Part shown: positions 918 through 56,874 of the stretch, piece after piece
Numbering within the stretch: position 1 is the first letter of the stretch
How the letters are laid out: every line of letters begins with the position of its first letter
Assembly: GCA_021849505.1 (NCBI GenBank)
Contig: JAJZSW010000005.1
Location: forward strand, 1 to 57,341
Length of the DNA stretch: 57,341 bases
Reading direction: 5' to 3'
DNA from: Pseudomonadota bacterium
Lineage (GTDB): Bacteria > Pseudomonadota > Gammaproteobacteria > Burkholderiales > Rhodocyclaceae
Made by a program: the position numbers and the translations under genes
The notes under the pieces: model-generated
What the model saw: the letters and a program-made list of their open reading frames with translations, nothing else
What the model was told of the DNA's origin: nothing
Database searches by the model: none

Positions 918-1300
918 TGCGCCTGCTGCTCGACACGCACGTCTTTCTCTGGGTGGTCGAGGACAGTGCACGCCTTTCCGACGCTGCCCGGAAACTGATC
1001 GCCCAGGCAAGCGAGGTGTACGTCTCGACCGCGTCCCTTTGGGAAATATCGATCAAGGCGTCCGCCGGAAAGATCGTTGCGGATATCGACAGCCTGGCAG
1101 CGGCGATCGAAGGCAGCGGCATGATCCCCCTTCCCGTGAGCCTGGCCCATGCGGTGCAGGTGGCTCATCTGCCCCTGCGCGACGGCCACAAGGATCCCTT
1201 CGATCGATTGCTGGTGGCCCAGTCGATGTCAGAACCGCTCGTGCTGCTGACCGCCGACAGGAAACTCGAAGCCTACGGGGGGCCACTCCGCGTCGCCTGA
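917..1300 (+). CDS. PIN-domain toxin (VapC-like ribonuclease)
   Basis: Predicted metal-dependent endoribonuclease of a type II toxin-antitoxin pair. The 127-residue PIN domain keeps the acidic residues of the active site: D6 (LLLDTHVFLW), E43 (LWEISIK), D93/D96 (KDPFDRLLVAQ) and D114 (LTADRKLE), so it appears intact. It belongs to the VapC branch paired with Phd/YefM antitoxins. The stop codon is immediately fused to a copy of the 24-bp interspersed repeat (TGA followed by AAGTCGGCGC). The target RNA cannot be told from sequence. Confidence 0.88.
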   Translation: MRLLLDTHVFLWVVEDSARLSDAARKLIAQASEVYVSTASLWEISIKASAGKIVADIDSLAAAIEGSGMIPLPVSLAHAVQVAHLPLRDGHKDPFDRLLVAQSMSEPLVLLTADRKLEAYGGPLRVA

Positions 1301-1323
1301 AAGTCGGCGCTGGCTAGACGGCA
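1300..1323 (+). repeat. 24-bp interspersed repeat, copy 1
   Basis: 22 of 24 match to the consensus that begins AAAGTCGGCGCTGG and ends GGGACGGCA. Begins on the last base of the vapC-like stop codon. Together with copy 2 in the same orientation it brackets the second toxin-antitoxin pair. Confidence 0.85.
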
Positions 1324-1332
1324 CCATATAGC

Positions 1333-1344
1333 ATCACCAGTGAT
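1333..1344 (+). promoter_or_regulatory. candidate operator of second toxin-antitoxin pair
   Basis: Perfect palindrome ATCAC-CA-GTGAT located 12 bases before the toxin start codon. Ribbon-helix-helix antitoxins commonly bind short palindromes of this kind; assignment is inferred from position. Confidence 0.4.
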
Positions 1345-1355
1345 ATCATGCGACC

Positions 1356-1790
1356 ATGAAGATCGTACTGGATACCGACGTGGTCGTGGCAGCCATGCGT
1401 AGCCCTTCCGGGGCGTCGGCAGAACTGGTTCGCCTGGCGCGCAGGAATCAAATCCGGTTGGCCGCGAGCGTGAGCCTGTTTATCGAGTACGAGTCTGTCT
1501 GCGGCCGACAAGAGCACATCGAGGCCGCCGGTCTCGCGGCAGAAGACATACCGGTTTTCCTCGATGCGCTTGCAAGCCTGGTGGAGCCGGTTCCCATCCA
1601 TTTTCTTTGGCGCCCGCAGTGTCGCGACCCGGCCGATGAACTTGTACTCGAAGCCGCAGTCAATGCCCAGGCGGACGCGCTGATCAGCTTCAATCTGAAA
1701 CACTTCACGGCGGCAGCCCATCGTTTCGGTCTGCGGCTATCGCAACCCGGCCCATTCCTGCAGGATTTCATGCGAGGTATTGCATCATGA
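1356..1790 (+). CDS. PIN-domain toxin, COG1569 type
   Basis: Predicted ribonuclease toxin of a type II module. The 144-residue protein starts MKIVLDTDVVVAAMRSPSG, the signature of the COG1569 'putative toxin PIN' group, with D6/D8, E44 and D91/D94 (CRDPADELVLEAA) as likely metal ligands and a C-terminal ISFNLKHF strand in place of the more usual TGDxxH. Gene order is toxin first, antitoxin second, with a 4-base ATGA overlap, opposite to the pair before it. Flanked by direct copies of the 24-bp repeat. Activity is inferred. Confidence 0.82.
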   Translation: MKIVLDTDVVVAAMRSPSGASAELVRLARRNQIRLAASVSLFIEYESVCGRQEHIEAAGLAAEDIPVFLDALASLVEPVPIHFLWRPQCRDPADELVLEAAVNAQADALISFNLKHFTAAAHRFGLRLSQPGPFLQDFMRGIAS

Positions 1791-2032: not shown

Positions 2033-2081
2033 ACAACCTGAAGGCAATATGGGAACCGATCACGACACGCCGGGTTGCCTG

Positions 2082-2105
2082 AAAGTCGGCGCTGGCGGAA
2101 CGGCA
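2082..2105 (+). repeat. 24-bp interspersed repeat, copy 2
   Basis: 23 of 24 to the consensus. Preceded by CGGGTTGCCTGA, which resembles the CGCGTCGCCTGA before copy 1 (codons for R-V-A-stop of the VapC-like toxin), so the similarity extends about 12 bases upstream. It ends one base before the sigma-54 promoter of fliD. Confidence 0.85.
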
Positions 2106-2121
2106 TGGAACACGACTTGCT
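2106..2121 (+). promoter_or_regulatory. sigma-54 promoter of fliD-fliS-fliT
   Basis: TGGAACACGACTTGCT has GG and GC separated by ten bases, the -24/-12 pattern of RpoN promoters, about 59 bases before the fliD start codon. Confidence 0.75.
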
Positions 2122-2179
2122 ATTGGCTTTAGTATTGATTGCAAACGCCGTTAACTGATTACCCACACAGGACAAGCAC

Positions 2180-3574: not shown

Positions 3575-3589
3575 CGTTTGAGGATACCC

Positions 3590-4417: not shown

Positions 4418-5563
4418 ATGGTACTCGTTCCTCCCGATGCCGCCATCCGCATGCGCGCGCAGGTGGAAAGCGAATTGCGCTCGCCGGTGCAGCAACTGCA
4501 GCCGCTGCGCGGAATTCCCGCCGAATTGCCGGCCATGCAGCGCGGCCAGACGTTTACGGCGCAGATCCGCGAAGTCCTGCCGGACAACACCTATCGCGCG
4601 CTGGTCGCCGGCAAGCAGCTGACGCTGCAGCTGCCCGAAGGCGCCAAGGCCGGCGACGAACTCGAACTGGTCGTCGTGGATCGCTCCGGCAGGGTGATCA
4701 TCGCCCGGCAGGCCGAAGGCGGCAATGCCCCGGCGGGCAGTTCCGCCCCCTACCCTTTCGCGAAATTCAGCGCGGCCGCGCGCCTGATCGGGCAGCTGTT
4801 GCCGGCCGAAGGCGAAGCGCCGCCGCCGGCGCAATTGAACCGCGGCCAGCCGCTGTTGGCGCAGCCGCCCCAGGCGCAGAATGCCGCGGCGCTGCTCGCC
4901 CCCGCGCTGGGCAAGGCCGTGGCGCAGAGCGGCCTGTTCTACGAAGCACACCAGGCCCAATGGGTTAGCGGCAGGCTGCCGCTCGCCCAGTTGCTGCAGG
5001 AGCCGCAGGGCCAGCATTCAGCCCCTGCCGCCTTCCAGCACGCCGCAGCCGAGAAAGTCGGCGCTGGCGGGACGGCACTCGCCGGCGCGCCGCGTGATAT
5101 CGAGACGCCACCCGCCGGCTCGCCGCGTAACATGGAGACGGCATCAGCGCAATCGCCCGGCCTGGCCCAGCGCGTCGCCGACGACTTGCGCCCGCTGGTG
5201 CAGCAGCAGCTCGAAGCGGCGGCGGCGAACCGGATGGCCTGGCATGGCGAAGTCTGGCCGCGGCAAACCATGGACTGGCAAATCGAGTGGGAGGGCGAAC
5301 GCGCGGCCGACGGCAGCAGCGACGAGGAAGCCCGGTGGCGCACCGCGCTGTCGCTGACGACGCCGCGGCTCGGGCGCATCGATGCCCAGCTGCAATTGTC
5401 GGCCAGGGGCGTCAGCATCGCATTGGCGACCCCTTCGGACAGCAGCGCCAACGACCTGCGCGCCGCCGCGCCAGCTCTGGTCGAAGCGCTCTCCGCCGCG
5501 GGTGTTCCGCTCCTCGACATCAAAGTGAGATTCGAGAATGAGTACCCTGCCGGGGAAGGATAA
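4418..5563 (+). CDS. second FliK-like protein with Flg_hook domain
   Basis: Flagellar hook-length-control-like protein, 381 residues, distinct from the FliK at 15538. The N-terminal 100 residues form a beta-rich part (FTAQIREVLPDNTYRALVAG); the middle is Ala/Pro/Gln-rich linker; the C-terminal 100 residues match the Flg_hook (FliK C-terminal) fold, with PRLGRIDAQLQLSARGVSIAL resembling the FliK 'PxxLGxVEVxL' core. The linker contains the 24-bp repeat in frame (KVGAGGTA, about residue 213) and two tandem 11-residue units (AGAPRDIETPP, AGSPRNMETAS). It overlaps by 26 bases the gene for a lone FlhB C-terminal domain, the natural partner of FliK. Role as an accessory substrate-switch factor is inferred. 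Confidence 0.75.
   Translation: MVLVPPDAAIRMRAQVESELRSPVQQLQPLRGIPAELPAMQRGQTFTAQIREVLPDNTYRALVAGKQLTLQLPEGAKAGDELELVVVDRSGRVIIARQAEGGNAPAGSSAPYPFAKFSAAARLIGQLLPAEGEAPPPAQLNRGQPLLAQPPQAQNAAALLAPALGKAVAQSGLFYEAHQAQWVSGRLPLAQLLQEPQGQHSAPAAFQHAAAEKVGAGGTALAGAPRDIETPPAGSPRNMETASAQSPGLAQRVADDLRPLVQQQLEAAAANRMAWHGEVWPRQTMDWQIEWEGERAADGSSDEEARWRTALSLTTPRLGRIDAQLQLSARGVSIALATPSDSSANDLRAAAPALVEALSAAGVPLLDIKVRFENEYPAGEG
5054..5077 (+). repeat. 24-bp interspersed repeat, copy 3 (in coding sequence)
   Basis: Exact match to the consensus. Read in frame by the FliK-like gene as Lys-Val-Gly-Ala-Gly-Gly-Thr-Ala. Confidence 0.9.
5081..5146 (+). repeat. tandem 33-bp in-frame repeat (two units)
   Basis: Units 5081-5113 and 5114-5146 encode AGAPRDIETPP and AGSPRNMETAS. 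They lie three bases after the 24-bp repeat in the linker of the FliK-like protein. Confidence 0.8.
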
Positions 5564-5846: not shown

Positions 5847-5877
5847 TGTCATAAAATCGGTCGCGCCGAACCCAGCC

Positions 5878-7734: not shown

Positions 7735-9152
<1,418 letters not shown>

Positions 9153-9153
<1 letters not shown>

Positions 9154-10046
9154 CAGGAGGACTCCGGGGGGGGTGCGTCAGCGCTGCCGCGACTGACGGT
9201 AAGAATGAATTCGGTGCCGGCACCGGGTTCGGATGTCACGTCGATGCCGCCGCCGTGCGCGCGCGCCACGCCGCGCGCGATCGCCAGCCCGAGGCCGGTG
9301 CCCTCGGCACGCGTGGTGAAGAAGGGCTCGAACAGGCGGGCGACGACATCCTGGGCCATGCCGCGGCCGTTGTCGCGAATGCCGAAAGCCAGTTGCTCGG
9401 CAGATGCCGTCACGCCAAGGCTGACTTTCGGAGAAGGAGATTCCGCCACTGCCTGCAGCGCATTCTCGATCAGGTTGGTCAGCGCCCCGGCGATGGCCTT
9501 GCGGTTGCCGATGATCACCAGACCCGCCGGCTCGGCCGTCAGTTCGAACGAGACCCCGCGCGCGCGCGCGAGCGGCTCGAAGGTATGCGCGAGCTCGCCG
9601 AGCAGGTCGGCGACCTCGAAGGGTTCGCGCCCGAGCACTTCGCCGCGCGCGAACAGCAACATGTCCTGGATCAGGCGCTCGAGGTGCTTGAGCCGGCCGA
9701 CGGTTTTCTGCGCGATGCCGACGCGGCTTGCTTCCGGCAAATCGGGGTTTTCGAGATTACCGGCATAGAGCAGCGCGGCGGCCAGCGGCGTGCGCAGCTG
9801 ATGGGCGAGCTGCGCGGCCATTTCGCCCATCGCCGTCAGGCGCTTGTTGCGCTCGGCTTCCTCGCGCAGGCGCTGCGTCTCGGCATTCGCGGCGGCCAGC
9901 TCGGCCGTCAGCGCCTCGACCTGCCGTTCCAGCGCGCCATAGGCCGTCGACAACTCCTCCGAAACCTGATTGAACAGGCGGAAAGCCTCGGCGAGACGCG
10001 CGGGATCCAGCGGGATTTCGGTGGCGGCGGGTGAGGTGTGATTCAT
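9153..10046 (-). CDS. flrB: flagellar sensor histidine kinase FlrB
   Basis: Soluble kinase that phosphorylates FlrC. With the ATG at 10046 it has 297 residues: a coiled-coil N-terminal region (EELSTAYGALERQVEALTAELAA), dimerisation/phospho-acceptor segment MAAQLAHQLRTPLAAAL with the active His, and an ATPase domain with N box NLIENALQA, G1 DNGRGM and G2 GTGLGLAIA. No membrane segment, as in FlrB/FleS. The frame stays open to 10166, but that extension is not family-like and runs through a decayed 24-bp repeat, so I prefer 10046; the ribosome site there is weak. Divergent from fliF. Confidence 0.92.
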
Positions 10047-10063
10047 CGGGAGGATGTTCGCAA

Positions 10064-10085
10064 AAAGTCGGCTCCGGCAATCCGG
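10064..10085 (+). repeat. decayed 24-bp repeat between flrB and fliF
   Basis: AAAGTCGGCTCCGGCAATCC resembles the consensus in its first half only. Listed as a possible remnant. Confidence 0.35.
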
Positions 10086-10115
10086 AGAATAGGGCCAGAA
10101 CAATAACCGAATTGG

Positions 10116-10130
10116 CGGCAATTTTTGCCG
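10116..10130. promoter_or_regulatory. CGGCAA-N3-TTGCCG palindrome (candidate FlrC site) at flrB/fliF
   Basis: CGGCAATTTTTGCCG, perfect 6-base arms, extended to GCGGCAA/TTGCCGC. It ends nine bases before the sigma-54 promoter of fliF and lies in the divergent region, so it could control both directions. Confidence 0.6.
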
Positions 10131-10138
10131 CTGCTTGC

Positions 10139-10154
10139 TGGAACCCGTCTTGCT
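10139..10154 (+). promoter_or_regulatory. sigma-54 promoter of the fliF operon
   Basis: TGGAACCCGTCTTGCT with GG-N10-GC, about 50 bases before the fliF ATG. Confidence 0.75.
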
Positions 10155-10202
10155 AGCCCAAGCCACAATCCGACAGCGTTCAACGGAGAACTTTTAGCGC
10201 AT

Positions 10203-18811: not shown

Positions 18812-19267
18812 GTGGCCATGCCGTCACGTCTCCTCTTTTGTGTTTCCATGCTCGTCGCGCCGTTCGCCGGCGCGGCCGATGCCGTCCCGTCAGCGCCGAC
18901 TTTGCCGGCTGCCGCGCCCGATCTCGGCAGCAGCGCACTGCAGATGGTGTTCGGGCTGATCGTCGTGCTGGGTTTGCTGCTCGGCGCCCTGTGGCTGCTC
19001 AAGCGCCTGAGCCAGCCGCGCGGCGCGGTCGCCGGACTGATGCGCGTGGTGGCCGGCGTGGCCATCGGTCCGCGCGAGCGCGTGGTCATCCTCGAACTCG
19101 GCAACAGCTGGCTGGTGCTCGGCGTCGCGCCGGGCCAGGTCACCACGCTGGCCGAGATTCCGCGCCAGGAATTGCCGCCGAGCGCAAAGCTGCCGGCGGC
19201 TGGCGAGTTACCCGCCTGGCTCAAGCACATCGTCGAAGCCCGTGCGAAGAACCGTGCAAAAAAGTAA
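18812..19267 (+). CDS. fliO: flagellar export protein FliO
   Basis: Accessory membrane protein that assists FliP ring assembly. 151 residues: signal-like N-terminus ending AGAADA, one membrane helix ([21 protein letters not shown]) and the cytoplasmic FliO domain ([23 protein letters not shown]). The first residues after the signal come from a 24-bp repeat on the minus strand (AVPSAPTL). GTG at 18812 or ATG at 18818 are both possible starts. Overlaps fliP. Confidence 0.92.
18880..18903 (-). repeat. 24-bp interspersed repeat, copy 5 (in fliO)
   Basis: 23 of 24 on the minus strand. Translated in fliO as Ala-Val-Pro-Ser-Ala-Pro-Thr-Leu at the predicted N-terminus of the mature protein. Confidence 0.88.
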
Positions 19268-21075: not shown

Positions 21076-21609
21076 TCAGCCAGCCGACTTGGTCAGGCGA
21101 ATCACGCCCTCGGCAGTACGCTTCGAGCCGAGCACCGACGAATCGAGCGCCTCCGAATACTCGACGATCTCGTAGCCGCTATAGCCGCCCTCGCGCATCA
21201 GCGTCCTGGCGCGCCGGTTGAACACGACCCGCGCCTCGCCGGCGCCACCCGTGTAATAGCGCTTCATCGACATCTGGAAATGCACATGATTCTCCGGCAG
21301 GCGCGCCTCTTCGATGTCCCAGTTCGGCGCGAGCGGGTCGAGGATCAAATACGCAGCCCCCACCCAGATGCCCCAGTAGACGAGCTTTTCGAGCGGGTAG
21401 GAAACCGAGGGTCCCAAGTGCACGGTGGTGTCCGGGATCAGCGGACCGCCAATGACCTTGGTCGTGACCTTGGCAAGCGCCTCGCTGGTCTTGCCGCCCA
21501 CCCCCTTGGCGTCGACCGCCGTCGGGTTCTGGGCGCAACCGGACAACAGAACGCCGATCATTGCGGCTTGCAACAGCCGGCGCTGACAGGACGGCACGCT
21601 GATCGCCAT
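21076..21609 (-). CDS. putative lipoprotein of unknown function
   Basis: 177 residues with a lipoprotein signal: a helix ending LLSGC (about residues 21-25), so the product should be lipid-anchored in the envelope. Beyond that: a hydrophobic segment (VYWGIWVGAAYLILDPLAP) and a C-terminal beta-rich part (VHFQMSMKRYYTGGAGEARVVF). I do not recognise a characterised family. Its start overlaps the flgL stop by one base, so it belongs to the flgK-flgL transcript and may be a flagellum-associated envelope protein; function unknown. Confidence 0.75.
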   Translation of the reverse strand: MAISVPSCQRRLLQAAMIGVLLSGCAQNPTAVDAKGVGGKTSEALAKVTTKVIGGPLIPDTTVHLGPSVSYPLEKLVYWGIWVGAAYLILDPLAPNWDIEEARLPENHVHFQMSMKRYYTGGAGEARVVFNRRARTLMREGGYSGYEIVEYSEALDSSVLGSKRTAEGVIRLTKSAG

Positions 21610-24875: not shown

Positions 24876-25829
24876 TCAGGATCTCGGCGCGCCAGCCAAG
24901 GTCAGGGCAAGGCTGCCGATCACGCGTTCGAGCTTGCTGGCATAGGCCGGGTCGGTGGCGTAGCCGGCGCGCTGGAGCCCTTGCGCGAAGCTGGCGGCAT
25001 CGCGGCTGCCGACGACCGCGGCATAGCGCGGCGACTGGGCGAGGAGTTGCGCGTAGTCCTGGAACGCTTCGGCATGGGAGCCGTAGGCCCGGAAGCGCTC
25101 GATGCGTTTTTCGGGAATGCCATTCACGTATTCGGTGGTACTCGCTTCGACGACCGCGCCGGTCCAGCTGGCGCCGGCCTTGATGCCGAACAGGTTGTGG
25201 CTCGGCCGGCCGTCGGCAAAGCGGGGTTCGAACTTGCCCCAGCCGCTTTCGAGCGCGGCATGCCCAACCAGGAACTGCGCCGGGATGCCGGTCGTGCGAC
25301 TGGCTGCGACCGCATGTGGCCAGACGCCAGCCAGAAAAGTCGGCGCTGGCGGGACGGCACTTGCGGCACCCTCGATCAGGCTGGGGCGGACAGGGCTACC
25401 TTCGAGCGGAATTGCGGGCGGCGGTTTACCGCCATCCGGCAACGGGTAAGCACGCGGAACATTAAACGGCATCGAGCGCAGGGGCGGCGCCAGCGGAAAG
25501 CCTTCTTCCCCACTCAGTGACTGCGGCGCAGCAGCACGCGACAACTGCCTTTCGATCACCGCGGCCAGGCCGGTACCTCCCTTGGCCGCCATCGCCTGGG
25601 CCAGTTGGGAATCGAGTAATTCCTGGTAGAAGCGGGTCTGGTCGCTGTCGAATGGTCCGGTCTGGGGCGTCGCGGCGCGCATCGACTTGAGCACCATCTG
25701 CAGGAACACCGCCTCGAACTGCCGGGCGGTAGCCTTCAGGGCTTCCGGATCGTCCTTGCGCAGATCGGTCTTGATCTTCGCGAGTGCCTGGACATCGAAA
25801 ACGGAGGGGGTCGGCGTGCCGGATATCAT
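24876..25829 (-). CDS. flgJ: rod-scaffold and peptidoglycan hydrolase FlgJ
   Basis: Caps the growing rod and cuts peptidoglycan to let it pass. 317 residues from the ATG at 25829 (an in-frame start at 25883 adds a non-conserved stretch). Domain 1 (about 1-105) is the rod-binding domain (ARQFEAVFLQMVLKSMRAATP; FYQELLDSQLAQAMA). A linker of about 60 residues contains the 24-bp repeat as AVPPAPTF. Domain 2 (about 170-310) is the glucosaminidase domain (TGIPAQFLVGHAALESGWGK, with the catalytic Glu). Both activities look intact. Confidence 0.95.
   Translation of the reverse strand: MISGTPTPSVFDVQALAKIKTDLRKDDPEALKATARQFEAVFLQMVLKSMRAATPQTGPFDSDQTRFYQELLDSQLAQAMAAKGGTGLAAVIERQLSRAAAPQSLSGEEGFPLAPPLRSMPFNVPRAYPLPDGGKPPPAIPLEGSPVRPSLIEGAASAVPPAPTFLAGVWPHAVAASRTTGIPAQFLVGHAALESGWGKFEPRFADGRPSHNLFGIKAGASWTGAVVEASTTEYVNGIPEKRIERFRAYGSHAEAFQDYAQLLAQSPRYAAVVGSRDAASFAQGLQRAGYATDPAYASKLERVIGSLALTLAGAPRS
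25336..25359 (+). repeat. 24-bp interspersed repeat, copy 6 (in flgJ)
   Basis: Exact match to the consensus. Read on the minus strand as Ala-Val-Pro-Pro-Ala-Pro-Thr-Phe in the inter-domain linker of FlgJ. Confidence 0.9.
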
Positions 25830-25895
25830 GACCCGATAGACTGCCTTGTCAGTGCCACGCAGGTCGGCGGAACATGCCGGCAATTCATGCCGTAA

Positions 25896-29279: not shown

Positions 29280-29303
29280 AGCCGTGTTATCAGCGCCGAC
29301 TAT
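29280..29303 (-). repeat. decayed 24-bp repeat between flgE and flgF
   Basis: About 17 of 24: the core AGTCGGCGCTG and the end ACGGC are kept. It begins at the flgE stop codon region, like other copies that sit on stop codons. Confidence 0.5.
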
Positions 29304-36658: not shown

Positions 36659-38185
36659 TCAGACAAGCGCGGCTCCCTGCGCCGCGGCCTGCGCCGGCAC
36701 CACCAGGCCGACTTCCTCGTCGCGCAGGCGATGCACCGAACCGGCCGCCGGCTGCTTGAAGGCCCGATGCAGCAGGTAGTTGCGGTTCGGCAGGTGCAAG
36801 TCTTCCGGCACGCGCTGGCCGTTGGCGACATAGGCCAGCAGCAGGCCGTGGCGCACCACGGCGTCGAGGGCCGGCGCCAGCGCCGCCGTCTCGTCCACCT
36901 TCGAGAGGATGCAGCCGGCGATGTCCTCGCCGGCATAGCTGCGGATTACGTCATCGAGCGTGTCGCCGCGGCTGGTGGCATTGAGCAGCAGGAGGCGCTT
37001 GACGTCGCCGGCGCGCATCAGCATCGCCGCCTGTTCCGCCACCATGCGATCGCGCTGGCTCATGCCGACGGTGTCGATGAGCACCATGTGCTTGCCGCGC
37101 AACTCGGCGAGCGTGCGGCGCAAATCCTCGCTGTCGCGCACCACATGCACCGGCACGCCGAGGATGCGGCCGTAGATGCGCAACTGCTCGTGCGCGCCGA
37201 TCCGGTAGCCGTCCGTTGTCAGCAAGGCCAGCTTGTCGGCACCGTAGCGCACGACGCAGCGCGCGGCAAGCTTGGCGGTGGTCGTCGTCTTGCCGACGCC
37301 GGTCGGCCCGACCAGTGCGAAGACGCCGCCGCGGTCGATCAGGTCGTTCTCGGCGGTCAGTGCGCGCAGGCGCCGATTCACCGCGCCGGCGAGCCATTTG
37401 CGGGCCTCGGGTGCCTCCATGCCCTCGGGCAAGTCCTCCACCAGCCGGCGCGCGAGTTGGCCGGAGAAGCCGGACTCGATCATCTCGCCGAGTAGCTGCG
37501 CGCGCAGCGGGGAGTGGCGCGTCATGTCGCCCCAGGCGAAGCCGGCCAGCTGGCGCTCGAGCAGGGACTTGATCGAGCGCATTTCCTCCATGAGCTGCTG
37601 GACCTGTGCCTCGCCATTCAGCATGCCCTGCGGCAGGGCGGGTTCGGCCGCTGCCCGGGCGAGCGAGGCGGCGACATGTTCCTGGCCGGGAACGCCGTGC
37701 GCCGCTGATTCGCGCGGGGGCAGCGGACGCAGCTTCGGCTTCTCCGCGACCGGCGCAGCCGGGGGAGCAGGCGCCTCCTGCCGGGGCGGCTGCCAGGCTT
37801 GCCACGGCTGGAACTGCTGCGGAGCCCGGGCCTTGGCGGAGAGCATCACCGCGTAGTCCGCGGTTTCGTCCGCGTCAGCAGTCGGCGCCGGGTCGCCCCA
37901 AGCCGCCGCCGCCGCGGGGGGCAGCGAGCCGGTGTTGCGTGCGTGGGGGGCCATCAAAGTCGGCGCTGGCGGGACGGCACGCGCTTGCGGCGCCGGCGCA
38001 GGGACGGCAACTGCCGGCTTGTTCTCGCCCTGCAGGGCTTCGAGGCTGTCGGCGGACATGGCCATGATTTCGACGCCGCCCGGCACCGACTTGTTCGAGA
38101 TCACGATGGCCTCGGAACCCAGGGCCGCCTTGACCTTCCTCAGGGCTTCGCGGGCACTCTCACCGAAGAAGCGTTTCACCGTCAT
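36659..38185 (-). CDS. flhF: flagellar placement GTPase FlhF
   Basis: SRP-type GTPase that sets the polar site and number of flagella. 508 residues: N-terminal B domain (VKRFFGESAREALRKVKAAL), a long Pro/Ala-rich linker about 60-200 holding the 24-bp repeat (AVPPAPTL), and an NG domain with G1 GPTGVGKTTTTAKLAAR, G3 DTVGMSQRD and the SKVDETAALAPALDA region. Longer than typical because of the linker. Its usual partner FlhG is reduced here to a short protein. Confidence 0.95.
   Translation of the reverse strand: MTVKRFFGESAREALRKVKAALGSEAIVISNKSVPGGVEIMAMSADSLEALQGENKPAVAVPAPAPQARAVPPAPTLMAPHARNTGSLPPAAAAAWGDPAPTADADETADYAVMLSAKARAPQQFQPWQAWQPPRQEAPAPPAAPVAEKPKLRPLPPRESAAHGVPGQEHVAASLARAAAEPALPQGMLNGEAQVQQLMEEMRSIKSLLERQLAGFAWGDMTRHSPLRAQLLGEMIESGFSGQLARRLVEDLPEGMEAPEARKWLAGAVNRRLRALTAENDLIDRGGVFALVGPTGVGKTTTTAKLAARCVVRYGADKLALLTTDGYRIGAHEQLRIYGRILGVPVHVVRDSEDLRRTLAELRGKHMVLIDTVGMSQRDRMVAEQAAMLMRAGDVKRLLLLNATSRGDTLDDVIRSYAGEDIAGCILSKVDETAALAPALDAVVRHGLLLAYVANGQRVPEDLHLPNRNYLLHRAFKQPAAGSVHRLRDEEVGLVVPAQAAAQGAALV
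37956..37979 (+). repeat. 24-bp interspersed repeat, copy 7 (in flhF)
   Basis: Exact match to the consensus. Read on the minus strand as Ala-Val-Pro-Pro-Ala-Pro-Thr-Leu in the FlhF linker, around residue 70. Confidence 0.9.
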
Positions 38186-41553: not shown

Positions 41554-41577
41554 TGTCGTCCTGCCGGCGCCGACCTT
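41554..41577 (-). repeat. 24-bp interspersed repeat, copy 8 (at mshP stop)
   Basis: 20 of 24 on the minus strand. Begins on the last base of the mshP-like stop codon (TGA followed by AGGTCGGCGC). Confidence 0.75.
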
Positions 41578-46700: not shown

Positions 46701-47255
46701 CCAGGTCACGACGAATTGCCGGTTGGGCGCGGTGCCGATCGATGCCCATTTGATGTAGCAGGTCGCGTGATCGGCGCAATTGGTCCTATTCGCGGCGTTC
46801 GGATAGTTGGCCCGGTCCAGAAGGTTGGTCGGATCGAGGTCGACGCCGAACACCTTCATGGTGTTGTTCATGCTGCCATTCGGATAAGTGTACGGATAGG
46901 TCTGCGGCGGTCCAATGCTCGCCGTGCCCGCCCCGCAGGTCGGGTTGTTGAACTGGAGGCGGCCATTCGTCATGATCCGCAACTGGGTATGGGTGGTCGT
47001 GCCGAACACGAAATTGAAGCCGATCGGGATCAGGTCGCTCAGCGTGTCGTCGAGCACCGGTGGCGTGGTGCCGCAACCGCCGCCGCCGTTGAATTTGTAG
47101 GGTGCGGTGTTGTGGCCGATGCGCGTGTGGGTCGAGGTATCGATCCAGTTGAACGGCGTGGATGCGCTGAGGTAGGTCTGCGCATGAACGGAAAAAGCCA
47201 GCCAGCCGCCGAGCATGGCCAGCAGCGAAGCAACCCAAACGAGCTTCGATTTCAT
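43788..47255 (-). CDS. mshQ: MshQ-like large secreted protein (LamG and DUF6701)
   Basis: Probable pilus-tip or surface protein of the MSHA system, 1155 residues. Signal peptide (VWVASLLAMLGGWLAFSVHA); an N-terminal beta domain (ITMNGRLQFNN-like stretch RIMTNGRLQFNNPTCG); a LamG/concanavalin-like domain about 270-500 (TVTFWYKSNVPWSGAGAQAA; GVIDEAKIYNSVLSTAQVSA); and the long DUF6701 C-terminal region typical of MshQ (GRLRLLNYHGSELVKPRVEY; CGGVAAWAQDPGARIRLG; ending YIFLRERY). First gene of a five-gene operon here, whereas mshQ is last in Vibrio. Binding target unknown. Confidence 0.85.
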   Translation of the reverse strand: MKSKLVWVASLLAMLGGWLAFSVHAQTYLSASTPFNWIDTSTHTRIGHNTAPYKFNGGGGCGTTPPVLDDTLSDLIPIGFNFVFGTTTHTQLRIMTNGRLQFNNPTCGAGTASIGPPQTYPYTYPNGSMNNTMKVFGVDLDPTNLLDRANYPNAANRTNCADHATCYIKWASIGTAPNRQFVVTWFQVPEWVNSNRTSGSFDLQVVLNEDGSFIYQYGNIVHGGTGTAQIGWQLTTTDYAVLTFGASSEPPPNTSIVFFKPSAIANYRFDEGAWASGSSGQVLDSTAGARHGMSVGRAQTTAGGYLCRGANIPANAAGGEVDAVRTVNLAAPSLNLLGTGTVTFWYKSNVPWSGAGAQAAQLLDATNVNGQWFYLAKKANGALYFGVMDSTGTFRSLESPVQTFAANTWVHVAVSWNFNALAAANSDQLKIHVNGAAPTTSSFTSNGTVSTQTGFLHFGDNPLGIADANGTVNSANGVIDEAKIYNSVLSTAQVSADMVSTHACPNYNIHHLEIQSSGSGLTCAASPISIRACLDATCSALYTGGISGTMTATGTTTANWDGGSGGFPGSGFAIGTGASSTTKNIQLSAAGSVVIGITGVDPPVTNPTTCNFGSPLCTFNASTAGFLLTNSSTGTTTYTLPNQVSGVPSGTAYLRALQAATTNPAVCTPAVINATNVPVTFGYACTDPATCQAGNLMTVNGSAVPAAGGSANLNFDANGSAPFTVRYDDVGQITMNLSKTFTPFSGATPIAFTGSSSFIVAPAGFAVTTTGPFVAGDPFTVTVSATNALGGIARSFGKESSTENVTLGRTLTGPAGGNNPLLGGTTNLADAAFQAGNGVAATNAVSWGEVGDIAVTVTLASGDYLGTGLTATGSGAAGPFKPAYFETAVTPGAGGTTYSGQPFGVTVTAKNSAGTTTQNYKGAYAKATTLTDANSATNNSGALGSFANATIAAASYGNGVATVATPTYTFTTKITAPLDAVASAPLKLRATDTDGVTSNGHAEGTTPIHAGRLRLLNYHGSELVKPRVEYRSEYWDGSRWARNTLDSSNPIVAGNIATGGLTVNGLTALTNGSGFITFNSAAAGSYDIALNLNSAGSDTSCNASHGGTGANKPWLQGHWSAPANCGGVAAWAQDPGARIRLGSPRAPYIFLRERY

Positions 47256-47291: not shown

Positions 47292-47315
47292 GAACTCGGC
47301 GCTGCCAGGACGGCG
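47292..47315 (+). repeat. decayed 24-bp repeat between cheA and mshQ
   Basis: 19 of 24 to the consensus; lies in the 76-base gap between the cheA stop codon and the mshQ start. The gap holds nothing else that I can identify. Confidence 0.5.
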
Positions 47316-47331: not shown

Positions 47332-49263
47332 TTACGCCGCGGCCTGCTCCGCTGGCAGCAAGGCGGAGCGCGGCACGCCGCGATGTTCCCCGAGGTCGGC
47401 GAGCAGCTCCTTCATGTCGAGGATCAACACGATCTGGCCGTTGGACAGCGTCGTGACGCCGGCCACGCCCTTCGGGCGGAAGCCTTCGAGCGACTTGATG
47501 ACCGCATCCTCGCGGCCCATGAAGCCGTCGATGGCCAGGATGAAGGTCTGGTCGGAAGTTTGCATCAGCACGCCGTATTCGGGCACCTTCTCTGGCGTCC
47601 AGCCGAGCAGGTGGGCTATCGGGAAGATCGGCATGACTTCGCCACGCACGACCATCGTCGCGCGACCGCCAACCTCCTGCACCTGATCGACGTCAATCGG
47701 CAGGATTTCGCGCACCATCGAGAGCGGCACTGCAAAGGGCTGCGCGCCGAGCTGCACCAGCAGCACGGGCAGGATCGCCAGCGTGAGTGGCAGCGAGATG
47801 ACGAAGGTGGTGCCCTTGCCCGGCTCGGACTTGATATCGATCGAGCCGTTGAGCTTCTGGATATTGGTCTTGACGACGTCCATGCCGACGCCGCGACCGG
47901 ACACGTCGGACGCCACGTCCTTGGTCGAGAAACCGGGCAGGAAGACGAGCGCGAGACTCTGGCGCTCGTCCATCGTGTTGGCTTCCTCGTCGCTGATGAG
48001 GCCCTTCTGGAGCGCCTTGGCGCGCAGTCGTTCGGCGTTCATGCCCTTGCCGTCGTCGGCGACGAGCAGCACGATATGGTCGCCTTCCTGGCGCGCCTCG
48101 AGCCGCACCTGAGATTTTTCCGGCTTGCCGGCGGCGCGCCGTTCCTCCGGGCTTTCGACACCGTGATCGACGGCATTGCGGATCAGGTGGATGATCGGAT
48201 CGGAGAGATCCTCGATCATCGTCTTGTCGATCTCGGTCTCTTCGCCGACCAGCAGCAGTTCGACATCCTTGCCGAGGTTGCGCGCCAGGTCGCGCGCGAT
48301 GCGCGGATACTTCTGGAACAGGCGACCGATCGGCTGCATGCGCGTCTTCATCACGGCGTTCTGCAGGTCCGAGACGAGCAGGTCGAGCTGGCTGACCGAC
48401 TGGTCGAGCGAGTGCAGCGTGTCGGTGTCGGTGCGGCCATTGAGGATGTCGCTGCGCAGCGCGTTCAGGCGGTTCTTGGTCAGGCCGATTTCGCCCGACA
48501 GGTTGAGTACCTGGTCGAGGCGGGTGGTATCGACGCGGATGGTGTTGTCGCGCGACTTCTCGTCTGCGCGCCGGCCGGCCGGCACGCTCATCGCACCCGG
48601 CTTGTCAGTGGCGCGCCGGCCGATGGCGTGCTGGATGATCTGCTCGGGTGTCTGCTGCGTAACGTCGAGGGTAGCAGCAGCCGGTGCGGAAGTCGGCTCT
48701 GGCTGTACGGCAGCTGCAACAGCTGACGCCGCAGCACCGGTGACGGCGCCGAAGAGTTGGTTCCAGTCGGGACTGGCTGCGGGCACCGCTGCGGTTGTGG
48801 CGGCTGGCGTGGCCGGCACGGCAACGGGGGCGGCAGCGGCAGGTGCCGGCGCAGCGGCGGGTGCGACCAATTCACCCGCCAGGGCGGCCTTGAGGCTGGC
48901 GATCAGGCCGGGTTCTGCGGGCGAGGGCTGCACGCCGCCTTCCAGCTGGCCGAACATGTCGCGCACCGTCGCCGTGGCCGCCATGATGACATCCATGAGT
49001 TCCCCGGTCACCGTCATTTCGCCATTGCGCAGCTTGTCGAACAGATTCTCCGTCAGGTGGCAGAGCGTCACGAGTTCGGCGGCGTTGAGGAAGCCGGCCC
49101 CGCCTTTGATGGTGTGGAAGCCGCGGAAGATGTCGTTGAGCAGCCCGAGGTCCTGCGGGTTTTTTTCGAGATCGACAAGCTTGTTGTCGACCCCCGAAAG
49201 AAGATCGGTGGCCTCGACCAAAAAGTCCTGCAGAAGATCTTCCATTCCGGCAAAGTCGCTCAT
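47332..49263 (-). CDS. cheA: chemotaxis histidine kinase CheA
   Basis: Central kinase of the chemosensory array. 643 residues: P1 HPt domain with phospho-His 50 (RGFHTIKGGAGFLN); an Ala/Pro-rich stretch about 130-230 containing a divergent 24-bp repeat (AVQPEPTS) and little recognisable P2; P3 dimer helices (RVDTTRLDQVLNLSGEIGLT); P4 with N box HLIRNAVDHGVE, G1 ADDGKGMN, G2 GRGVGMDVVK; and a P5 CheW-like domain (GATTFVIS onward). Ten bases after cheZ. Confidence 0.97.
   Translation of the reverse strand: MSDFAGMEDLLQDFLVEATDLLSGVDNKLVDLEKNPQDLGLLNDIFRGFHTIKGGAGFLNAAELVTLCHLTENLFDKLRNGEMTVTGELMDVIMAATATVRDMFGQLEGGVQPSPAEPGLIASLKAALAGELVAPAAAPAPAAAAPVAVPATPAATTAAVPAASPDWNQLFGAVTGAAASAVAAAVQPEPTSAPAAATLDVTQQTPEQIIQHAIGRRATDKPGAMSVPAGRRADEKSRDNTIRVDTTRLDQVLNLSGEIGLTKNRLNALRSDILNGRTDTDTLHSLDQSVSQLDLLVSDLQNAVMKTRMQPIGRLFQKYPRIARDLARNLGKDVELLLVGEETEIDKTMIEDLSDPIIHLIRNAVDHGVESPEERRAAGKPEKSQVRLEARQEGDHIVLLVADDGKGMNAERLRAKALQKGLISDEEANTMDERQSLALVFLPGFSTKDVASDVSGRGVGMDVVKTNIQKLNGSIDIKSEPGKGTTFVISLPLTLAILPVLLVQLGAQPFAVPLSMVREILPIDVDQVQEVGGRATMVVRGEVMPIFPIAHLLGWTPEKVPEYGVLMQTSDQTFILAIDGFMGREDAVIKSLEGFRPKGVAGVTTLSNGQIVLILDMKELLADLGEHRGVPRSALLPAEQAAA
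48689..48712 (+). repeat. 24-bp interspersed repeat, copy 9 (in cheA)
   Basis: 20 of 24. Read on the minus strand as Ala-Val-Gln-Pro-Glu-Pro-Thr-Ser in the Ala/Pro-rich region of CheA, around residue 185. Confidence 0.7.
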
Positions 49264-52606: not shown

Positions 52607-53833
52607 TCAATGCACGTCGCGGAAGCGCCGCAGGGTGGTCTCGAGCTCGGCAGCCAACTCTTCGAGCTGGCGTACCCGCTCCGCCACCTGGCCGGCGCGC
52701 GCATCGCCCGCGGCGGAAAGCGCGGCAATCCGCTCGACGTTGGCAGCGATGTCGGCGCTGGCGCGGTTCTGGTCATCCACAGCGGCATTGATGCGCCCCA
52801 TGCCAGCGGTCGTCGCGCCGACCGAGCAGTTGGTTTCCCCCAGCGCTTCGGCCACTGTCTCGAGATACTCCTGGGAAGTGGCGAGCGATTCCAGGCCCTT
52901 TTCAAGGGTCGTCCTGACCTTGGCGGCCAGCTGTTCGAGGTTGCGCGTCACGCCGTCGATCTCGCTCGCCGTGGTGGCCGACTTTTCAGCGAGCTTGCGC
53001 ACCTCGTCGGCCACCACCGCAAAGCCGCGGCCCTGCTCGCCGGCGCGCGCCGCCTCGATGGCGGCGTTCAGCGCCAGCAGGTTGGTCTGGTCGGCGATGT
53101 CGCGCACTTCGCGCGTCATGCCGGTAATCGAGGAGGCGCTGCTGATGAATTCGCGCGCGGTGTCGGTCATTGCGCTGACCGCGCTCTCGGCCTGGGTCAG
53201 TTCGCCGATCATGTGCGACAGGCTCTCGTTGCCCTTCTGGGTGCACTCGAGGCTCGTCGCGGCGAGCCGGTCGACTTCGGCCGTCTGGGCGGCGATATCC
53301 CCGATGCCCCCGGTCAGCTGGGAAACCGCGCCGCTGGCCACCTGGGCGGCGGAATTCTGTTCACTCGCCCCCGCCTGCATGCTCCGCGTGATGCCTTGAA
53401 ATTCTTGCGCCGTGGCATGCAGCCGGGCGGCGGTGGCGGTCAGTTGCCCCGCCAGTTCGCTCAGGTTGGCGCGCATGCCGGCGATGGCCGCCAGCAGACT
53501 GTGGTCGTCGCCCGCCTTCAGCTCGATGGGCACGCCCAGATCGCCACCGGCGATGCGCTTGACGACATCCGCCACGTACTGGGGTTCGCCGCCGAGCAGG
53601 CCGAGCAGGATGCGCGCCAGCTGAACGAAAGCGGTGAGGCCGATCACCGAGGCAAGGAGGGCCACACCGATCATCCAGTTGCGCCCCTCGCCGGCCTGGA
53701 CGAGCAGCTTCGGATCGAGCTGCCCGGCCGCATCCGCGAGGCGCAGGTACATCACGAAGGCAAAGCCGTTGGCGACGAGCGTCACCACGGCCAGGATGGC
53801 GAGTACCCAGTAAATGCGTTGCCGCAGTGTCAT
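52607..53833 (-). CDS. methyl-accepting chemotaxis-like receptor without a ligand domain
   Basis: 408 residues from the ATG at 53833. Membrane helix 1 ([20 protein letters not shown]), only about 30 residues outside, membrane helix 2 ([20 protein letters not shown]), a HAMP domain ([20 protein letters not shown]) and a signalling domain with the conserved tip ([38 protein letters not shown]). No periplasmic sensor domain and no C-terminal CheR-tethering peptide (ends RRFRDVH). It may sense membrane or cytoplasmic state. A STAS-domain gene is directly upstream. Confidence 0.9.
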
Positions 53834-53889
53834 GTTGCTCTTCCTCCCTCGATCGAGTTGGCCTGCCGGACGATCCCGGACAAGCGTAT

Positions 53890-54192
53890 TCAGGCCAGCG
53901 GAAACAGCTTGCCGAAATTCGCGATGTCGATGACCTGCCTGACAGCGCCGCGCGGGTTCGCGAGCGCGACCGTCTTCCCGGCGCCCTTCGCCTTGTCGCG
54001 CAACATCAGCAGCATGCCGAGCGCGGAGCTGTCGAGATACTCGACGCCGGCGAGATCGACCCGGATATCCGGCGCGGCTTCCTGCAGGGCGCGCTCCACG
54101 GCATCGCGGAACTCCCGGTGCGTGTTGAAATCGAACCGCCCCTGCAGGACGATGACGGTATTGCCGTCGCGGCTGGTCACGTTGGTTTGCAT
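53890..54192 (-). CDS. STAS-domain protein (anti-sigma-antagonist-like)
   Basis: 100-residue single STAS domain: [20 protein letters not shown] and the phospho-site loop [20 protein letters not shown], with the conserved Ser. Such proteins bind a partner kinase or phosphatase; here the neighbours are cheB and a receptor lacking a sensor domain, so a link to chemoreceptor or motor control is possible but inferred. 56 bases separate it from the receptor gene. Confidence 0.9.
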
Positions 54193-54246
54193 GCTTCCTT
54201 CCCCTTATCCCGAATGGCTCTTTTCTCTTCCAAAAGTATAACTGGA

Positions 54247-54270
54247 TGCCGGCCCGCCAGCGCCGACTTT
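54247..54270 (-). repeat. 24-bp interspersed repeat, copy 10 (at cheB stop)
   Basis: 23 of 24 on the minus strand; begins on the last base of the cheB stop codon (TGA followed by AAGTCGGCGC) and occupies the start of the cheB-STAS gap. Confidence 0.88.
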
Positions 54271-55319
54271 CATGGTTGGCGCAGGCGCGCCAGTATCCGC
54301 GCCGCAACATCGTTCAGGCTGGCCACCTCGGCGACGGCGCCGACCTGCGCCGCCTCGCGCGGCATCCCGTACACCACGCAGCTCTCCTGATCCTGGCCGA
54401 TGTTCCAAGCCCCGGCTTGGCGCATCGCCAGCATGCCCTGCGCGCCGTCCTTGCCCATGCCGGTCAGGATGACGCCGATGGCATGGCGGCCGGCTTCCCG
54501 CGCGACCGCATGGAACAGCACGTCGACCGACGGCCGATGGCGGTTCACCGGCTCGCTCCGCGCCAGTTCGGTCAGCCAGCCTGCCCCGCTCTTCCTGACC
54601 AGCAGGTGGGAATGCCCCGGCGCGAGATAGGCATGGCCCGGCTGGATGCGCTCGCCGCCTTTCGACTCGACGACGCGGATCGAGCCCAGGCTGTCGAGGC
54701 GCTTGGCGAAGGAAGGCGTGAAGGCTTCCGGCATGTGCTGCACGATCACGATGCCCGGCACTTCCGCCGGCAGGCGCGCGATCACTTCCTTGATCGCTTC
54801 GGTGCCGCCCGTCGATGCCCCGATGGCGATCAGCTTCTCGGCGAGCACCCGGCCCGGCACGCCGGCAGCCGCCTCGGGGCGCGCGGGCGCCGGTGTGGCT
54901 GCCACTTGCGGATGACGCAGATGGGCACTCTTGGCCGCGCGGATCTTCTCGCGGATCTCGTCGGCATAGCCTTGCAGCAGCGCGGCACTCTCGGCGCGGG
55001 GCTTGGCGATGAAGTCGACGGCACCCAGTTCAAGCGCACGCAGCGTGACTTCCGAGCCGCGCGCAGTCAACGCGGAAATCATCACCACCGGCATCGGCCG
55101 GAGCTTCATCAGCCGGCTCAGGAATTCGATGCCGTCCATCTTCGGCATCTCGACGTCGAGCGTCAGCACGTCCGGGTTGAGGGCCTTGATCATCTCGCGC
55201 GCGGCGAGCGGATCAGGCGCGCTGCCGACGACTTCGAGATCGGGCGCGCCGCCGATGATCTCGGTGAGCAGGCTGCGCATCAGCGCGGAGTCGTCGATGA
55301 TCAGAACCTTGATGGCCAC
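54270..55319 (-). CDS. cheB: receptor methylesterase/deamidase CheB
   Basis: Resets receptors by removing methyl groups. 349 residues: receiver domain with D55 ([12 protein letters not shown]), linker rich in Ala/Pro, and catalytic domain with the Ser-His-Asp set ([44 protein letters not shown]). Eight bases after cheD. Confidence 0.97.
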
Positions 55320-55327
55320 GGGTTTCC

Positions 55328-55936
55328 TCAGAACAGTTCGATTTCGCCGGCAACCGGCGCTTCGGCGAGGCGCGCCGCGTACTCCTTCTCGCGGCGGATC
55401 AGGGTGTCGTTATGCATGCGCAACAGCTTCTTCACCAGCACGCGGCCGGTCTCCGGAAAAAAGTACACCTTGCGCGGATAGCTGTCGAGCAGGTCTTCCG
55501 CAGCGGTCGGGATCCCCTCGGTCCTGAGAAACGTCCTCACGAAACGGGCGTTGCGTTCGCCCACCTGGGAGCTGGAGAGCGTCGCCATGACGCGCCCCCC
55601 GCCGAACACCTTGGCTTCGAGATTGTTGCGGCGCGCGCCCATCTTGAGCAGGTGGTTGATGAGGATTTCCATCGCGTAGGTGCCGTAGCGCGCCGAGGCC
55701 GACAGCGCGCTGGCTTCGCCGGCGTCGGCGAGCATGAAGTGGTTCATGCCGCCGATGCCCTTCTCGCGGTCGCGGATGCAGGCCGAGACGCAGGAGCCGA
55801 GCACCGTCACCATCAGCACGTTGGTCGCCGTGACGAAATATTCGCCAGGCAACACCTTGACCGCCTCCGCCGCGAACTTGCGGTCGAAATAGCGGTTGCT
55901 TGCCAGGTGCTCGACGAAGCCGGCTTCCTGGTTCAC
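55328..55936 (-). CDS. cheD: chemoreceptor deamidase CheD
   Basis: Deamidates Gln residues of receptors. 202 residues from a GTG at 55936; catalytic Cys and His are present ([23 protein letters not shown]), with the CheD core ([36 protein letters not shown]). The start overlaps the cheR stop by four bases (GTGA). Confidence 0.94.
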
Positions 55937-56874
55937 GCCCGCCCTCCGCGGCGATCGGCGCGCTCGTACACCGTGCGCCCCAGCGAGCGGAACAGGTCGG
56001 CGGCATGGAGGAAGCTTTCCGAATGCCCGGCATACAGCAGTCCGTCGGCATGCAGCAGCGGCACGAATTTCCTGAGTATCTGGTACTGCGTCGGCTTGTC
56101 GAAATAGATCATGACGTTGCGGCAGAACAATGCGTCGAGCGGACCCTTCACCGTCGGCCAGCTGGCATCGAGCAGGTTGACGCGGCTGTAGGTGATCAGT
56201 TTCTGCAGTTCGGGACGCACGCGCACGTGGCCGGCCTGCGTGCCGGTGCCCTTGAGGAAAAACTTGTGCAGTCGCTCGGGATGCAGCCGCTCGACGCGTT
56301 CGAGCGGATAGACGCCGCGCTCGGCCGTCTTCAGTACGTTGGTGTCGATGTCGCTGGCGTGTATCTGGACCGGGGGCGTCAGGCTCTCGAAGGCCTCGCA
56401 GGCGGTGATGGCCAGCGTGTAGGGCTCCTCGCCGGTCGAGGCGGCGGAACACCAGATGCGGAGCGGGCGGTGGCTCAGTCCGATCAGCTGTTTTTTCAGC
56501 AGGTCGAAATGATGCGCTTCGCGGAAGAACGAGGTGAGGTTGGTCGTCAGCGAGTTGACGAAGGTTTCCCATTCCTGCGCGTCGCCCCGCTCGAGATGTG
56601 CCAGGTACTGGTCGAAGCTGTTCATGCCCAGCGCCCGCAGCCGCCGCGCCAGCCGCGAGTAGACCATGTCCTGCTTGATCGGCGCGAGCGTGATGCCGGC
56701 ATGCTTGTAGATGAGCTGCCGCACGCGCTCGAAATCGGCCTGCGTGAAATGGAACTCGCGCTGCGGCAGCAGGCGGTCGGCTGCGCCAATGGCCTTCACG
56801 GTCTGCGCCAGCAGACCGGATGCCGTATTGCCGGCGCCGACTTTGGGGGGCGGGGCGATCAAAACTCCTCCCAT
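55933..56874 (-). CDS. cheR: chemoreceptor methyltransferase CheR
   Basis: Methylates receptor Glu residues with S-adenosylmethionine. 313 residues: N-terminal helical domain (FERVRQLIYKHAGITLAPIK), then the methyltransferase domain (RIWCSAASTGEEPYTLAITA; LDALFCRNVMIYFD). The first 25 residues are an extension carrying a divergent 24-bp repeat (PKVGAGNTA). The ATG at 56874 overlaps the receptor gene by 16 bases; the GGAGGAG just after it could instead serve a TTG at 56862. Confidence 0.95.
   Translation of the reverse strand: MGGVLIAPPPKVGAGNTASGLLAQTVKAIGAADRLLPQREFHFTQADFERVRQLIYKHAGITLAPIKQDMVYSRLARRLRALGMNSFDQYLAHLERGDAQEWETFVNSLTTNLTSFFREAHHFDLLKKQLIGLSHRPLRIWCSAASTGEEPYTLAITACEAFESLTPPVQIHASDIDTNVLKTAERGVYPLERVERLHPERLHKFFLKGTGTQAGHVRVRPELQKLITYSRVNLLDASWPTVKGPLDALFCRNVMIYFDKPTQYQILRKFVPLLHADGLLYAGHSESFLHAADLFRSLGRTVYERADRRGGRA
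56821..56844 (-). repeat. 24-bp interspersed repeat, copy 11 (in cheR)
   Basis: 20 of 24 on the minus strand. Read in frame as Lys-Val-Gly-Ala-Gly-Asn-Thr-Ala near the CheR N-terminus, the same frame as copy 3. Confidence 0.75.

Follow-up and report, generated by a model that had tools for sequence, protein, structure and literature searches.

To our knowledge, the Pasteurellaceae and the Neisseriaceae are the only two families with uptake words. Here we describe a 24-bp interspersed word (the 24-mer) that recurs in a stretch of 57,341 nucleotides (the window; positions 1 to 57,341 of contig JAJZSW010000005.1, assembly GCA_021849505.1, Rhodocyclaceae) and throughout the genome containing it (2,749,208 bases in 161 contigs). 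Judged by its sequence and distribution, the 24-mer is likely to be a DNA uptake sequence, that is, a bipartite recognition word that would be read by a natural-transformation receptor.

Uptake words have been described in naturally competent Pasteurellaceae and Neisseriaceae (PMC7811141, in the part cited here). The relevant sections of PMC1939737 and PMC2397512 characterize uptake sequences by gradual change instead of whole-unit insertion, by occurrence in both orientations without polarity, by permissive sites, by a non-coding excess and, as cited there, by even spacing; the 24-mer matches much of this description. In PMC2397512, many DNA uptake sequences (DUS) are argued to appear by recombination. 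Like the DUS of Neisseriaceae, the 24-mer has very many copies in both orientations, lies in coding and non-coding DNA at permissive sites, shows lineage dialects and occurs in a genome with a ComP_DUS-family pilin. In contrast to the 10–12 bp DUS, it is 24 bp long and bipartite, has a lower density and shows no inverted-pair terminators in a sample of its genome. A CTG core at positions +6 to +8 is conserved in all DUS dialects according to the cited part of PMC3630211, and by this mark the 24-mer falls outside the Neisseria DUS sequence family; its reverse complement shares GCCGTC with GCCGTCTGAA, as do 6.4% of shuffles. With the uptake signal sequence (USS) of Pasteurellaceae, the 24-mer shares a strong consensus and change by substitution rather than insertion, as judged by a gap test on protein alignments that was applied to the Haemophilus USS (PMC1626085, in the portion cited) and is of the same kind as the one used here. 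The USS differs in sequence and consists of a 9-bp core with AT-rich flanks; the AAAGT that both contain does not exceed chance (20.7% of shuffles). Kinship in sequence to Neisseria DUS or Haemophilus USS was rejected, since the shared strings are within shuffle chance.

The CGTC-/GTAG-tagged repetitive extragenic palindromes (REPs), the Rickettsia palindromic elements and dRS3 are also short and partly intragenic, CGTC occurs in the reverse complement of the motif, and E2', one of the modules carried by some copies (see below), folds as a hairpin; unlike them, the 24-mer is not palindromic and has no insertion signature, and no gene of the REP-associated tyrosine transposase (RAYT) type was found in its genome. 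Cyanobacterial small dispersed repeats are interspersed units of 21–27 bp described as mobile, whereas the 24-mer changes in place. Among the papers listed from open-licence PubMed Central, none reports, in its title or the opening of its abstract, an uptake sequence in Rhodocyclaceae, Sulfuritalea, Sterolibacterium, Rhodocyclales, Burkholderiales or Betaproteobacteria. On balance, we favor the view that the 24-mer represents a third family-level uptake-sequence system, residing in an environmental Rhodocyclaceae group, with a 24-bp bipartite word and dialects in at least eight genera that would mark exchange partners. If true, the system would allow comparative tests of whether uptake words serve kin recognition or repair or merely follow from a biased receptor, and DNA exchange between natural populations could be predicted from it. 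It would add an independent example whose word is built differently, in lineages represented here by environmental assemblies, several of them titled groundwater.

The match to uptake sequences rests on abundance, in-place change, uneven constraint, fast-changing surroundings, even spacing, both orientations and dialects. In the mechanism we propose, a surface DNA receptor of the transformation apparatus, possibly one of the minor pilins of type IV, would read the word, and fragments bearing it would be preferentially taken up and then recombined at the homologous place. The uptake bias would slowly convert near-matches to matches and restore decayed copies wherever the protein or the intergenic DNA tolerates this. 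A shift of receptor specificity in a lineage would let the copy set drift to a new spelling, giving rise to a dialect. We infer uptake or transformation as the driving force, and likewise the identity of the reading protein.

Abundance, architecture and placement of the 24-mer

Genome-wide, at ≤3 mismatches, the 24-mer occurs 269 times in forward and 235 times in reverse orientation (504 copies in total, about 180 per Mb), versus 0 for the reversed motif used as a control. The frequency is far above chance, in answer to a check set beforehand in the preliminary description of the window, and the strong over-representation extends to both strands, as in uptake sequences. In a sample of 453,598 bases of this genome (hereafter, the own sample), the motif occurs 25, 29, 20, 9, 13, 10 and 11 times at 0 to 6 mismatches, and the reversed motif 0, 0, 0, 0, 0, 0 and 3 times. 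The background level is reached at 7 mismatches (14 matches to the motif versus 17 to the reversed motif).

The boundaries of the 24-mer are sharp in the own sample. A purine immediately precedes the 24-mer in 82% of 82 copies (≤3 mismatches); outside the 24-mer and this purine, only a weak preference for C 3' of the motif was found. The consensus, about (R)AAAGTCG(G/A)CGCTGG-N4-ACGGC(A/G), is bipartite, with 14 bases, a 4-base spacer and 6 bases, and its information content, summed over positions, is 34–39 bits. Sub-words of the motif are the top over-represented 10-mers in samples of the own genome and of the genomes G017 and G026; other words outrank them in the G002 sample, and the samples of G019 and G040, which are small, do not have motif words at the top. 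Self-complementarity reaches 10 of 22 positions at best and the fold is weak (-5.5 kcal/mol), in agreement with the lack of strong dyad symmetry noted before, and the 24-mer has no palindromic stem of the kind found in REPs and Rickettsia palindromic elements. A search of six sources against Rfam gave no match at the repeats and a single tRNA elsewhere; an RNA family as the identity of the repeat was rejected on this ground.

Mismatches are unevenly distributed along the 96 copies of the own sample, with 0 at positions 6, 21 and 23 and 16, 26 and 23 at positions 12, 16 and 17. Among the 17 G/C positions, the unevenness corresponds to a chi2 of 149 (16 degrees of freedom), or 153 for transitions alone. 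Neutral remnants would show an even spread, which was not observed. Using gene models from a simple rule based on GC content at third codon positions, which also underlie the reading-frame counts below, 66 of the 96 copies lie inside genes, 6 extend across a gene end and 24 fall between genes, with non-coding DNA making up 11%. No clear 5' bias of copies within genes was observed, and a regulatory site was rejected for this reason. Of 170 copy comparisons, 123 had flanks that aligned poorly, versus 200 of 771 random ones, which places the copies in fast-changing DNA. The copies are also more evenly spaced than expected by chance (coefficient of variation 0.72 versus 0.92 simulated, p 0.007), with 2.7% of neighbors less than 500 bp apart versus 12.4% simulated and none of 1,000 simulations as low. 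Spacing in G017 is even too (p 0.022 for the coefficient of variation, after merging of copies less than 120 bp apart). Where GC skew keeps one sign, a span of about a tenth of each chromosome, there is no strand bias with respect to replication in 272 kb of G017 (28 + and 31 -) or 270 kb of G002 (25 and 17), and a polar site resembling the FtsK-orienting polar sequences (KOPS) or Chi was rejected accordingly. Permissive DNA, even spacing and absence of polarity, the last from a tenth of two chromosomes, are thus all as in uptake sequences.

All six frames of the 24-mer are stop-free, as had been reported. The accompanying statement that two frames are used proved to be a small-sample effect: among 141 coding copies of three genomes, all six are used (forward 45, 13 and 7; reverse 22, 44 and 10), two of them preferentially. 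Conservation of the encoded peptide, the sign of a protein-level origin, was encountered at one site, where five relatives have nearly the same codons; elsewhere, the copies occupy six frames and non-coding DNA. The use of every frame, together with the non-coding copies, identifies DNA and not peptide as the shared unit and disfavors protein-level conservation as the origin.

Distribution and spelling of the word

The best named matches to the FlhF protein of the window come from assemblies titled Rhodocyclaceae, Sterolibacterium and Sulfuritalea, the last being placed in Sterolibacteriaceae by the NCBI taxonomy. A copy at ≤5 mismatches is present in 9 of 80 named loci (L039–L041, L046 and L048–L052), all among the 14 best matches, and the reversed control occurs once in the 80 (L069). 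Within the genus, 17 of 18 other genomes have 122–661 copies (≤3 mismatches) and one, G006, has none. Outside the family but within the order, 2 of 32 genomes carry copies (4 and 1). Among 297 sampled genomes of the family, 8 of 68 genera include at least one genome with at least 20 copies: g1 (the own genus), g2, g9, g23, g70, g77, g78 and g96. Eleven genomes of g2 have 89–333 copies and one, G285, has 12; the top repeated word in about 24 kb of G285 (L275–L277) is CAGAGGCGCA-like. A single scan of IMG/VR viral contigs found 13 contigs (L312–L324) with one exact copy each.

Genus consensuses differ over a common bipartite core (sampled DNA, 6–102 copies per genome), and the spellings vary at positions 8 and 24. 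For position 24, exact whole-genome matches to the spellings ending in GGCA and GGCG were counted. Their ratio within the own genus is 157:6 in the own genome, 136:38 in G001, 91:134 in G003, 133:1 in G017, 0:3 in G016 and 0:0 in G006. Elsewhere, two g2 genomes have 9:176 (G019) and 25:130, two g78 genomes 15:12 and 23:173 (G149), and two g96 genomes 7:105 (G161) and 13:105; the ratio is 8:136 for G026, 42:272 for G087, 2:5 for G040 and 0:0 for G094. Exact copies with A at position 8 number 38 in G094, 6 in G003 and 1 each in G087 and G040; the other twelve genomes, including the own, have 0. The word thus has lineage dialects, with a clean split between several genera and mixed spellings in G003, of the own genus, and in G185. 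Such many-site spelling shifts have been described for Neisseria DUS (PMC3630211, cited part). They would be expected if a reader protein changes specificity and would not be expected from neutral decay. The set of spellings (A/G at 24, G/A at 8) is a natural experiment on the co-evolution of receptor and word, with G006 as a word-less relative. A different word in G006 was rejected, as no alternative 10-mer stood out in 142 kb (L229–L238). The 122 copies of G016 (≤3 mismatches), of which 3 are exact to the two main spellings, may be decaying or may represent a spelling of their own.

The main rival to the uptake-sequence reading is that the 24-mer is the site of an intracellular DNA-binding protein (for nucleoid organization, segregation or repair), selected at hundreds of places. 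The even spacing, uneven positional constraint, sharp edges and in-place change would fit any selected protein-binding word. Less easily accommodated are the spelling shifts at many sites between genera, the mixed spellings within one genus (G001 and G003), the presence of copies on both strands where GC skew keeps one sign, their mostly genic location without clear 5' bias, and the failure to find any copy in G006. We consider such a site unlikely.

Change in place and insertion

G017 and G002 (84.6% identical over 53.5 kb) were compared in both directions using copies at ≤4 mismatches. From G017 to G002, 44 of 59 copies had both flanks present. Plain copies, with no hairpin module nearby, accounted for 32 of these and were gap-free in 27 cases, partly gapped in 5 and cleanly absent in none; the 12 copies with a module were gap-free in 6 cases, partly gapped in 5 and cleanly absent in 1. 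From G002 to G017, flanks were present for 35 of 42 copies, 27 of them plain (24 gap-free, 3 partly gapped, 0 cleanly absent) and 8 with a module (4, 3 and 1, respectively). Across both directions, which share sites, the plain copies are gap-free in 51 of 59 comparisons, partly gapped in 8 and cleanly absent in 0; the clean insertion relative to orthologues that characterizes REPs and Rickettsia palindromic elements is thus not seen in any of the 59. The 47 well-flanked ones of the 170 copy comparisons above comprised 27 ungapped, 20 partly gapped and 0 cleanly absent.

FlhF C-termini of 17 sequences were aligned, one from the window and 16 from the 80 named loci (L039–L053 and L056, leaving out L054 and L055). 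In 5 of these 17 sequences (L046 and L048–L051; L048 and L050 are near-identical), the motif is present at 2–3 mismatches within the eight codons that follow HRAF. The remaining 12 have unrelated codons at this place (11–17 mismatches), and the multiple alignment is gap-free. Because the motif and the unrelated codons share an ungapped block, the aligned sequences indicate that the motif at the FlhF C-terminus arose by substitution. In a second ungapped case, a copy at 2–3 mismatches in G017 and G002 corresponds to sequence with 16 mismatches in G008 and 12 in G010, none of them gapped. More broadly, 147 coding copies yielded 1,359 comparisons, of which 534 were ungapped, 664 were gapped and 161 did not cover the copy. 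Counts of missing residues in the 664 gapped comparisons show no peak at eight (24, 23 and 24 for 7, 8 and 9 residues). Individual alignments are weak in many of the copy-bearing linkers because of their hypervariability. Copies are thus found to arise by changing existing sequence rather than by insertion, with few sites deciding the matter.

These results bear on the proposal, made in the preliminary description, of a mobile or selected element filtered for permissive sites. A mobile 24-bp element tolerated at such sites, akin to a small dispersed repeat, a Rickettsia palindromic element or a REP, would account for the sharp edges, the length being a multiple of three, the in-frame linker copies and the coming and going of larger hairpin modules on some copies. 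It is disfavored by the gap-free plain copies without a clean absence, the lack of an eight-residue gap peak, the gain by substitution in FlhF, the spelling shifts and the absence of a strong palindrome. In addition, there are no evident subfamilies (61 distinct sequences among the 96 own copies, 54 of them single), and a search for a Y1 transposase of the IS200/RAYT type, which is present in 5 of 19 genomes of the genus, gave no match in the own genome or in G002 and G017. We regard this explanation as very improbable, and the mobile half of the proposal, with its likeness to Rickettsia palindromic elements, is not supported. The selected half, with its likeness to uptake sequences at permissive sites, is backed by in-place change, fast-evolving surroundings, even spacing and genus-wise spelling variants. 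The 24-mer is probably a genome-wide recognition word with dialects, not a mobile repeat.

The hairpin modules are of two kinds. E2, of about 80 bp, occurs in the own genome, G008 and others (L149, L156, L157, L159 and L160), and was unmatched in Rfam in six sources. E2', of 54 bp, folds as a different hairpin and occurs in G002 and G017 (L164, L167 and neighboring stretches); its core was matched 12 times in the 272 kb from G017, 16 times in the 270 kb from G002 and not at all in the own sample. Modules share the first bases of the motif (12–14 in E2), frequently adjoin a 24-mer and can form tandem arrays, with up to three units in a stretch of G018 (L156). The two module-bearing copies that are cleanly absent in the partner genome show that modules come and go; the modules resemble hitch-hikers riding on the 24-mer, or else insertions within it, and are a separate phenomenon. 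That the word is instead the end of these modules and spreads with them, plain copies being remnants, is the least probable explanation, in that the modules of the own genome, G002, G017 and G008 do share the first bases of the motif and often stack on 24-mers but are few (3 E2 cores versus 96 copies in the own sample) and differ between genomes, whereas the 24-mer is common to several genera and most plain copies have no module remnant in their aligned flanks.

Several observations weigh against an uptake sequence that changes in place. Random 24-mers are gap-free equally often in the G017/G002 comparison (277 of 300 and 294 of 323, with 3 and 0 cleanly absent), so the plain-copy result shows the lack of recent insertions and not the origin of the copies; ancestral insertions common to both genomes would likewise align gap-free. 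Identity in this pair is 0.90–0.93 for copies and 0.87 for flanks, a modest difference. At the FlhF site, tblastn gave 4, 22, 5, 22 and 8 gapped comparisons for five queries, and copies gained or lost through substitutions amid conserved sequence were seen at few sites overall. The missing-residue counts include an unexplained high value of 42 at eleven. The word is longer than known uptake words, and its density is several times below that in Haemophilus influenzae, where 1,471 USS in 1.8 Mb are about four times denser (PMC1626085, cited portion). Enrichment in the core genome was not seen in one pair (orthologous flanks for 44 of 59 copies versus 300 of 400 random 24-mers). No copy in the own sample has a neighbor within 150 bp, and inverted-pair terminators as in Neisseria are therefore absent from it. 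The distribution of competence genes also belongs here. The own genome has the competence machinery (ComEC and DprA) and a ComP_DUS-family pilin gene, the latter in a minor-pilin cluster with a GspH-type pilin and PilW next to the LytB (IspH) gene, but these genes do not discriminate. Relatives, many of them motif-less, have ComEC in 43 of 49 cases, DprA in 47 of 49 and ComP_DUS in 53 of 61; G006, with 0 copies, has all three. Conversely, motif-bearing drafts are without a match to ComEC (G018), DprA (G014) or ComP_DUS (G013 and G015), and in G019 the DprA match is below the cut-off. Since the genes are present in motif-less relatives and unmatched in some bearers, they permit but do not prove the uptake reading, and the presence of competence genes or a ComP-like pilin fails as a discriminator of motif genomes.

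Copies in the window

The copies of the 24-mer in the window are listed in Table 1. All eleven main copies of the preliminary description carry the motif with 0–4 mismatches, and exactly three are perfect; two further copies were added. The first 14 bases alone have 36 matches at ≤3 mismatches (shuffled mean 10.1, maximum 18). Three decayed copies had also been proposed. Those at 47292 and, by orthology, 29280 stand, while the one at 10064 (more than 6 mismatches) is indistinguishable from chance, because the motif and the reversed motif are equally frequent at 7 mismatches.

Table 1 Copies of the 24-mer and the hairpin module in the window.
Feature	Position	Strand	Mismatches	Context
24-mer	1300..1323	+	2	End of open reading frame (ORF) 917-1300 / intergenic
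24-mer	2082..2105	+	1	Between larger ORFs
24-mer	5054..5077	+	exact	In fliK-like gene (4418-5563 +)
24-mer	7946..7969	+	2	In FlrC-like sigma-54 response regulator gene (7735-9153 -)
24-mer	9405..9428	-	4	In histidine kinase gene (9153-10166 -); absent from the preliminary description
24-mer	18880..18903	-	1	In fliO (18812-19267 +)
24-mer	21573..21596	+	4	In ORF 21076-21609 (-), no Pfam match; absent from the preliminary description
24-mer	25336..25359	+	exact	In flgJ-like gene (24876-25883 -)
Decayed copy	29280..29303	-	7	Good copies at the orthologous place in G003, G017, G002 and G007
Hairpin module E2 (78 bp)	37878..37955	+		In frame in flhF; adjoins 24-mer copy
24-mer	37956..37979	+	exact	N-terminal linker region of flhF (36659-38185 -)
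24-mer	41554..41577	-	4	Between ORFs 40300-41466 and 41577-41999
24-mer (decayed)	47292..47315	+	5	Between ORFs 43788-47255 and 47332-49263
24-mer	48689..48712	+	4	In cheA (47332-49263 -)
24-mer	54247..54270	-	1	5' end of methyl-accepting chemotaxis protein (MCP) ORF (52607-54310 -)
24-mer	56821..56844	-	4	N-terminal extension of cheR (55933-56874 -)

Pfam agrees with the seven gene identities given earlier (FliK hook domain, FlrC-like sigma-54 response regulator, FliO, CheA, CheR, a rod-binding/glucosaminidase protein resembling FlgJ, and the SRP54-type GTPase FlhF). Beyond these genes, the copy at 54247 also lies within a gene, at the start of the MCP ORF. At 7946, the DNA of G017 aligns gap-free with 3 differences. 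At 41554, differently altered versions occur in G017, G002 and G008, which align gap-free, and in G018, which has small gaps. Instead of being a plain 24-mer, the copy at 37956 makes up one end of a repeat that spans about 100 bp. The E2 module next to it, translated in frame, opens with another, partial motif copy (GCAGTCGGCGCCGG); at this place, G017 carries a plain 24-mer and no E2.

In the G002 sample (L167, L173–L175 and L219–L228), an AT-rich word unrelated to the 24-mer (AATGGACAATCTGGGTT-like) is over-represented, its 10-mers occurring 11–14 times versus 0.2–0.7 expected.

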